Assembly: GCA_027314165.1 (NCBI GenBank)
Contig: DAHVCH010000004.1
Span: 1 to 64,000, forward strand
Source of the DNA: Thermoplasmata archaeon
Lineage (GTDB): Archaea; Thermoplasmatota; Thermoplasmata; Lutacidiplasmatales; UBA184
DNA length: 64,000 nt
Direction: 5' to 3'
Below the pieces are notes generated by a model. The model searched no databases and was not told the DNA's origin. It worked only from the letters and a program-made list of their open reading frames with translations. Shown piece by piece: positions 2,964 through 62,433 of this stretch; the stretch's first letter is position 1; each line of letters begins with the position of its first letter. The position numbers and the translations under genes were made by a program.

Positions 2964-3081
2964 CGCCGAGGGGGAGACTCTCCATCGACGGGGGTGGTCC
3001 CCGTCGGTCTTTGAACTCCCGAGGTGGAGATCCACCACGAGCTTTCCAGGCTCGCGCCGTACCGGTCTGAGCCACCTCGGC
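2964..3081 (-). tRNA. tRNA-Ser(GGA) with an intron in the T loop
   Basis: The minus strand folds as a serine tRNA. The acceptor stem is GCCGAGG with CCTCGGC and discriminator G. The D stem is GCT/GGC. The anticodon stem CGAGC/GCTCG closes the loop CTGGAAA, giving anticodon GGA. The long variable arm is GGTGG/CCACC and the T stem is GGGAG/CTCCC. The T loop begins TTCAA, but 34 rather than 2 bases separate this from the 3' T-stem strand, so about 32 bases (2979-3010, ambiguous by one) must be removed to give an 86-nt tRNA. The insert forms its own hairpin, CGACGGGG-ACCAC-CCCCGTCG. A weak helix, TTCA against TGGA, next to it could be part of a relaxed bulge-helix-bulge site. CCA is not encoded. 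Confidence 0.88.
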
Positions 3082-3166
3082 AGCCCCGAGGAGCGGATAG
3101 GAGCCCCGAGATAACCCTAGCGCGAAGCGGCCGAGGGGCGGACGGAGCGTCCGGGCCTTGCCTGGC

Positions 3167-3406
3167 CTACCAGCCGGACACCGACGACCCGCACTTGGGG
3201 CAGGGCGTGGGCCGCAGGTCCACTTCCAGCCAGTATCCGCAGCTGGGGCAGTCGCTCGAGAGGGGCCCTAGAGGGGTGGAGCAGTCGAAACAGAGTCCGT
3301 GTCGCCGGTCGTCGGGAAGCACGACGAGTTCCTTCCCGCACTGCAGGCAGTGCTGGAATTTCTCCTCGCCCGACAGGAACGTGCGAACGTCAGCTTCCAC
3401 CAACAT
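3167..3406 (-). CDS. Small zinc-ribbon protein
   Basis: 79 residues from the ATG at 3406. The listed longer ORF adds an N-terminal stretch with no protein character. Four knuckles are visible: CLQCGK, CFDC, CPSCGY and CPKCGS, enough for two zinc ribbons. No enzyme motif is present. Proteins of this type are common in Thermoplasmata and often have nucleic-acid- or protein-binding roles, but the function cannot be read from the sequence. A TATA-like box about 29 nt before the ATG suggests a leaderless monocistronic transcript. Confidence 0.75.
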   Translation of the reverse strand: MLVEADVRTFLSGEEKFQHCLQCGKELVVLPDDRRHGLCFDCSTPLGPLSSDCPSCGYWLEVDLRPTPCPKCGSSVSGW

Positions 3407-3430
3407 CCGAGCTTCCGACCAGCTTCCGCG

Positions 3431-3439
3431 AAGATAAGC
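3431..3439 (-). promoter_or_regulatory. TATA-like box for the zinc-ribbon gene
   Basis: GCTTATCTT on the minus strand lies about 29 nt before the ATG at 3406. In archaea transcription starts about 25 nt downstream of the TATA centre, so the mRNA would begin at or near the start codon. Confidence 0.4.
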
Positions 3440-3640
3440 CTGCCGACCACCGGGCCGACTTGAGGCACCGGACCCGGACTTTTTCGTACGAATTATCTCG
3501 CGCGGGCGGCGTGGCCCTCCGTCAGAGCGATGCGCCGGGTCCGCAACTCTTCGAGAGAGCGCGTCGCGGCGACGCACGCCCCGCGGAGCCGTTCCGAGTC
3601 GTGCCGCGGACACCGCGGTCGGCCGCGAAAGGCCAGTCGC

Positions 3641-62318: not shown

Positions 62319-62433
62319 GCGGGGATAGCCAAGCTTGGCAACGGCGCGGAACTTAAAACCGGGAGAGCGAACCTCTCCCGGGGAAGGTATTCCGTCGCGT
62401 AGGCGTTCGCCGGTTCGAATCCGGCTCCCCGCA
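62319..62433 (+). tRNA. tRNA-Leu(TAA) with canonical anticodon-loop intron
   Basis: Acceptor GCGGGGA/TCCCCGC with discriminator A, D stem GCC/GGC, anticodon stem CGGAA/TTCCG, loop CTTAAA-A giving anticodon TAA, variable stem CGC/GCG and T arm GCCGG-TTCGAAT-CCGGC. A 31-nt intron (62358-62388) follows position 37, the usual archaeal site. Its CCGGGAGAG-CGAAC-CTCTCCCGG hairpin and the flanking CTT/AAG pairing fit a bulge-helix-bulge motif. CCA is not encoded. Confidence 0.95.

Follow-up and report, generated by a model that had tools for sequence, protein, structure and literature searches.

At the T arm of archaeal tRNAs, non-canonical introns have been described in Crenarchaeota and Nanoarchaeota (PMC4090602, PMC4033280), including introns at 59/60, an already known archaeal site (PMC4090602), and reviews associate tRNA introns outside the canonical site with endonucleases that are heterotetrameric or carry a specific loop (PMC4090602, PMC4033280). 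According to the same reviews, euryarchaea with alpha2 or alpha4 enzymes have single introns at 37/38 only, and the alpha'2 type of splicing endonuclease (EndA) is classed as narrow in specificity (PMC6379350, PMC4090602, PMC4033280). The tRNA-Ser(GGA) gene analyzed here lies in a 64,000-nt stretch of DNA (the window) from a Thermoplasmata genome of the order UBA184, which has been named Lutacidiplasmatales (PMC9287336). The introns of this order resemble the crenarchaeal and nanoarchaeal ones in position, size and bulge-helix-bulge (BHB)-type motif, and likewise occur in several tRNAs per genome, some of them with two introns. However, Crenarchaeota and Nanoarchaeota mostly possess (alpha beta)2 enzymes, to which Crenarchaeota add a Crenarchaea-specific loop (CSL), whereas the present Thermoplasmatota have a fused alpha'2 EndA without CSL, and the bulges here keep the canonical 3-nt geometry. 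The EndA of Archaeoglobus fulgidus and Thermoplasma acidophilum (1RLV/2GJW, 2OHC; PMC6379350) has the same fused chain, with the Tyr/His/Lys and Arg of the C unit conserved, but it is listed as narrow and such euryarchaea are described as having introns at 37/38 only (PMC4090602), in contrast to the T-loop introns found here. The homodimeric EndA of Ferroplasma (PMC8707768), a Thermoplasmatales enzyme that matches in class and type, is able to cleave minimal BHB motifs at 30 °C even when no tRNA body is present; these substrates are minimal ones rather than T-loop introns, yet such cleavage makes T-loop BHBs plausible EndA substrates. Korarchaeum has been described as the only archaeon that pairs an alpha2 enzyme with non-canonical tRNA introns, and its EndA reportedly bears the specific loop (PMC4033280) that is missing here. 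Many tRNA introns at non-canonical positions are also known from Atabeyarchaeia and Freyarchaeia (PMC11291895), likewise soil archaea but belonging to the Asgard group, and the likeness concerns non-canonical positions in general.

The minus strand of the locus reads as a complete class II tRNA (Table 1), with a 7-bp acceptor stem (GCCGAGG/CCTCGGC) followed by G73, an anticodon loop CTGGAAA, a long variable arm and a 5-bp T stem (GGGAG/CTCCC). The T loop of the unspliced form spans 39 nt. The first-pass annotation, which had described closed stems and a self-pairing insert of about 32 nt in this loop, is thereby confirmed, as is its placement of the genome in Thermoplasmata. ARAGORN makes no call on the unspliced gene, but after deletion of the 32 nt it returns tRNA-Ser(gga) with a perfect cloverleaf; comparison with the intronless orthologues agrees that removal restores a normal tRNA. 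The Rfam tRNA model aligns to the 5' part only (3017-3081), at 23.4 bits, below the gathering score. MFE folding of the whole precursor, which counts against a tRNA precursor insofar as it gives no cloverleaf, is uninformative; that of the spliced form gives none either. The gene sits between minus-strand ORFs at 2420-2914 and 3167-3613, outside any likely coding gene, and a TTAT element was seen by eye at a similar upstream place in relatives (upstream sequences of 15 loci). Its cognate codons UCC/UCU account for 27 of the 54 serine codons in three sampled genes. No second tRNA-Ser(GGA), the intact copy that would have spoken for a pseudogene, was found in the window's genome, which is 85.7% complete.

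Table 1. Window positions of the features of the interrupted tRNA-Ser(GGA) gene.
Feature	Positions	Strand	Remark
Pre-tRNA-Ser(GGA) gene	2964..3081	-	118 nt including G73
5' exon	3010..3081	-	tRNA positions 1-59, ending TTCAAA
Intron, GACCGACGGGGACCACCCCCGUCGAUGGAGAG	2978..3009	-	32 nt, between positions 59 and 60; basis includes intronless orthologues L070-L072, L144, L330
3' exon	2964..2977	-	positions 60-73, U CUCCC CCUCGGC G
Anticodon GGA	3045..3047	-	decodes UCC/UCU
T stem, 5' strand	3016..3020	-	GGGAG
T stem, 3' strand	2972..2976	-	CUCCC
BHB central helix, exon strand	3013..3015	-	U54-U55-C56
BHB central helix, intron strand	2980..2982	-	G-A-G
Intron hairpin, 5' arm	2999..3006	-	CGACGGGG
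Intron hairpin, 3' arm	2986..2993	-	CCCCGUCG
TATA-box-like element, GGTTATCTC	3108..3116	-	about 33 nt ahead of the tRNA 5' end; by eye

With the register fixed by aligning all introns at their 3' ends, U54-U55-C56 pairs with G-R-R of the intron (C56-G(-5), U55-R(-4) and U54-R(-3)) in all 74 Ser(GGA) introns, as well as in 47 of the 49 T-loop introns compared across isodecoders. The window copy has a 3-bp central helix of U-G, U-A and C-G, and in this register the helix lies between two bulges of the canonical 3 nt, A58-A59-N1 and N-N-U60. A fourth, Watson-Crick pair at R57 is present in 28 of the 49 T-loop introns and missing from 21. Position 57 and intron base -6 vary together, C being found opposite G57 in 20 of 22 cases and opposite A57 in none of 27 (Fisher p = 8e-12, only a guide as the sequences are related). 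In Ser(GGA) the fourth position is an A57·G mismatch, leaving a relaxed rather than a strict 4-bp BHB. The relaxed motif of the first-pass annotation thus holds for this gene, but across isodecoders the splice motif is near-canonical. The helix that it had drawn, TTCA/TGGA, is off by one, since U54-U55-C56 pairs with G-A-G at -5 to -3. TTCA/TGGA suits the window copy but demands a 4-nt 3' bulge; it forms in 72 of 74 Ser introns versus 74 of 74 in the shifted register, and does not hold for further isodecoders; in Lys, for instance, it would set C56 against C. One Ser(GGA) intron (L116) ends in TGAATA and gives A57-U, a full 4-bp UUCA/UGAA helix and thereby a natural canonical-motif variant.

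The window's genome contains one EndA gene (C3:51116-52123, minus strand), with two complete units (PF02778/PF01974) in a single reading frame. The catalytic Tyr/His/Lys set is present in the C unit only, together with an Arg equivalent to the bulge-recognizing R280 of A. fulgidus. Comparison with the engineered A. fulgidus enzyme 3P1Y revealed that the CSL, which includes a Lys and follows YG ahead of the LSLxEA helix, is absent from both units; at this place the C unit has the same length as the EndA of M. jannaschii and A. fulgidus. Relative to the epsilon2 (ARMAN) type, which has three units and an ASL, the protein has two units only, and its C unit shows no extra loop when compared with M. 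jannaschii. Judged by its sequence, EndA is a fused two-unit alpha'2-type enzyme, and the fusion suggests that it forms a homodimer. At 85.7% completeness, the genome assembly might have missed a further copy of EndA or of the tRNA, but a single EndA gene is also found in more complete relatives, including the 100%-complete G006. A PF02778 search for a hidden second EndA gave nothing significant besides the fused gene (one match at E 0.44 in G008). The exon ligase RtcB is encoded on the window's contig, 9.6 kb past the window end (C44:73565-74872).

These features enable us to propose a putative splicing route. The locus is very probably a functional single-copy tRNA-Ser(GGA) gene with a 59/60 BHB intron that would be cut by the fused alpha'2 EndA and its exons joined by RtcB. 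In the precursor, U54-U55-C56 would pair with G-R-R near the intron 3' end, to which many isodecoders would add R57 and the next intron base, and the intron's own hairpin would leave the two 3-nt bulges. The sole EndA found would cut each bulge behind its second nucleotide, and ligation by RtcB would restore the regular T-loop sequence UUCAAAU. What is read from the sequence is the structure of the gene, the conservation of its intron, the helices and their covariation, the one EndA gene and RtcB, and from these we infer splicing by the fused EndA at exactly the A59-N1 and N-U60 bonds. Against this route counts the helix of Ser(GGA), whose 3 bp make it weaker than the canonical 4 bp reportedly required by alpha'2 enzymes. 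Nevertheless, because the Ferroplasma EndA needs no tRNA body, an ordinary alpha'2 enzyme meeting a T-loop BHB is enough to explain the data, and the broad-specificity endonuclease that had been expected from the intron position is unnecessary: the only EndA found is the fused, CSL-free one. The 3-bp versions of the motif may, however, need something in addition.

Alternatively, the endonuclease of this order might have been broadened by a route of its own, involving neither CSL nor ASL, so that 3-bp helices and both D-loop and T-loop sites are tolerated. We regard this as doubtful, although the introns without a Watson-Crick fourth pair would fit it, as would the D-loop introns and the tRNA-Lys with two introns. 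Neither EndA unit has an insertion at the CSL site, the EndA layout is identical in intron-poor Thermoplasmata families, and with canonical bulge geometry the extra breadth may be superfluous. The long N-unit loop PRGGxPxKTPS was considered as a new specificity loop and rejected, as it has catalytic-unit length and is common to the intron-poor families.

The same intron might instead be cut one base upstream, at 58/59, giving a mature T loop UUCAAGU in the window species. Either cut leaves a 7-nt T loop and is accepted by ARAGORN, in line with the one-base ambiguity stated in the first-pass annotation, and position 59 varies in other tRNAs of the genome. However, isodecoder comparison favors 59/60: 47 of 49 T-loop introns follow an A at exon position 59, whereas their own last base is free to vary, the intronless orthologues have A59, and isodecoders with the full 4-bp helix point to 59/60 by the 3-nt-bulge rule. 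Cleavage at 58/59 is therefore improbable, and the cut site is best placed at 59/60.

Relatives were gathered with a 5'-half pattern against GTDB genomes, which gave 92 stretches, nearly all from Thermoplasmata MAGs, with Ca. Lutacidiplasma silvani and UBA184 among the matches. About 100 relative loci of the order UBA184 / Ca. Lutacidiplasmatales, representing 74 distinct sequences, carry an insert of 31-33 nt at the same site (TTCAAA-insert-T), the opposite of the absence from close relatives that an assembly error might have produced. Among 54 distinct 33-nt introns, both sides change in seven of nine hairpin pairs, with 55 double-change cells versus 16.8 in shuffles. The covariation score of 0.241 compares with 0.118 in shuffles, none of 500 of which reaches it, and with 0.03-0.08 in slid registers. 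Because so many distinct inserts share one site and covary strongly, the insert is not a product of chance. A mature tRNA that keeps the insert, its T loop being enlarged accordingly, is highly implausible, as the T loop builds the tRNA elbow, the inserts vary by species and are missing in genus g3, and the conserved BHB helix is a need of splicing only. Despite the weak Rfam score, the window Ser(GGA) is a real gene, and a pseudogene or assembly artefact can be dismissed given the recurrence in many separately assembled genomes, the recurring upstream TATA-like element, the intact stems and the failure to find a second copy.

In genus g3 the Ser(GGA) gene is exactly intronless, reading TTCAAAT (L070-L072, L330), and the site is also intronless in outgroup families of the class; in the sister families f2 and f3, Ser(GGA) is interrupted in the anticodon loop instead (L313, L243). 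Since g3 is nested within the family on the EndA tree (support 92/89), the simplest history, on this one-gene tree, would be a gain in the family ancestor followed by exact loss in g3. Two assemblies contain two different Ser(GGA) genes each, G019 (L061, C217:206-276) and YP2.bin30 (L105, L159), one identical to that of the window's genome; for G019, with an estimated contamination of 7%, mixed binning is likely.

A T-loop intron is indeed unusual for a euryarchaeal lineage, as had been remarked, but the Ser(GGA) intron is no isolated oddity. The window's genome has at least eight T-loop 59/60 introns, the others being found from weak Rfam matches in Ala(GGC), Gly(TCC), Lys(TTT), Ser(GCT), Asp(GTC), Pro(CGG) and Asn(GTT), and such introns are a habit of the order. 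Three other genera have 7-12 T-loop introns per genome among the loci examined (G041, 11; G008, 12; G005, 7), which are lower bounds as only weak Rfam matches were fetched. At least three were found in sister family f2 and five, of 13-15 nt, in f3. Overall, intron length ranges from 13 to 47 nt, and the fourth pair is present in some and absent in others. tRNA-Asn is intronless in most other families tested. Intron transposition between tRNAs as in Thermoproteales was considered; similarity is 0.61 among isodecoders within a genome versus 0.64 for one isodecoder between genomes, a comparison that gives no sign of recent spread and is a weak test for short GC-rich sequences.

Because T-loop introns coexist with a loop-less alpha'2 EndA, Lutacidiplasmatales break the published rule that restricts euryarchaeal alpha'2 enzymes to 37/38 (PMC4090602). 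The order-wide use of 59/60 in Thermoplasmatota together with such an enzyme is new as far as the literature searched shows: the word 'intron' is absent from the main text of the Lutacidiplasmatales paper (PMC9287336), and no publication on the tRNA introns of Lutacidiplasmatales came up in a literature search. We tentatively suggest that T-loop 59/60 is a standard intron site of the whole order, served by an alpha'2 EndA without a known specificity loop, that enzyme architecture does not dictate intron position, and that a third, loop-independent kind of broadening may add to it. With one loop-less fused EndA beside as many as twelve T-loop introns in a genome, the rule of enzyme/intron co-evolution becomes testable on natural substrates. 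Furthermore, Rfam at the gathering score and ARAGORN either overlook the tRNA genes of this order or treat them as fragments; statements on tRNA-based completeness or 'missing tRNAs' may thus be off.

Other interrupted tRNAs were also observed. At 62319-62433 (plus strand) the window has the tRNA-Leu with an anticodon-loop intron that the first-pass annotation had mentioned, a Leu(TAA) with 31 nt inserted, recovered by both ARAGORN (intron mode) and Rfam. In the window's genome, Lys(TTT) is additionally interrupted in the D loop, and the D arm carries an insert in both Arg(GCG) and Leu(TAG). Lys(TTT) genes with both D-loop and T-loop introns occur in three genomes of two families (L093, L226, L307), and D-arm introns, at approximate positions, in Arg(GCG), Leu(TAG), a CAT-anticodon tRNA, Pro and others (L096, L098, L205, L207, L221, L223, L227, L246, L247). 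CCA-anticodon (Trp-type) tRNAs have inserts of about 70-95 nt in the anticodon region (L195, L232, L241, L304), which might correspond to the box C/D-bearing tRNA-Trp intron already known. In f11, a different family of the class Thermoplasmata (L287-L289), Lys(CTT) has a 20-21 nt T-loop intron at 59/60 whose UUCG/CGAA helix has all 4 bp and which was probably gained independently. The introns of the f3 genome G026 (L242, L244, L248, L249, L250), for example TTCAAA-AGTGAACTGAAAA-T, likewise lie at 59/60 and, at 13-15 nt, come close to 11 nt, the reported minimum length of tRNA introns in archaea.
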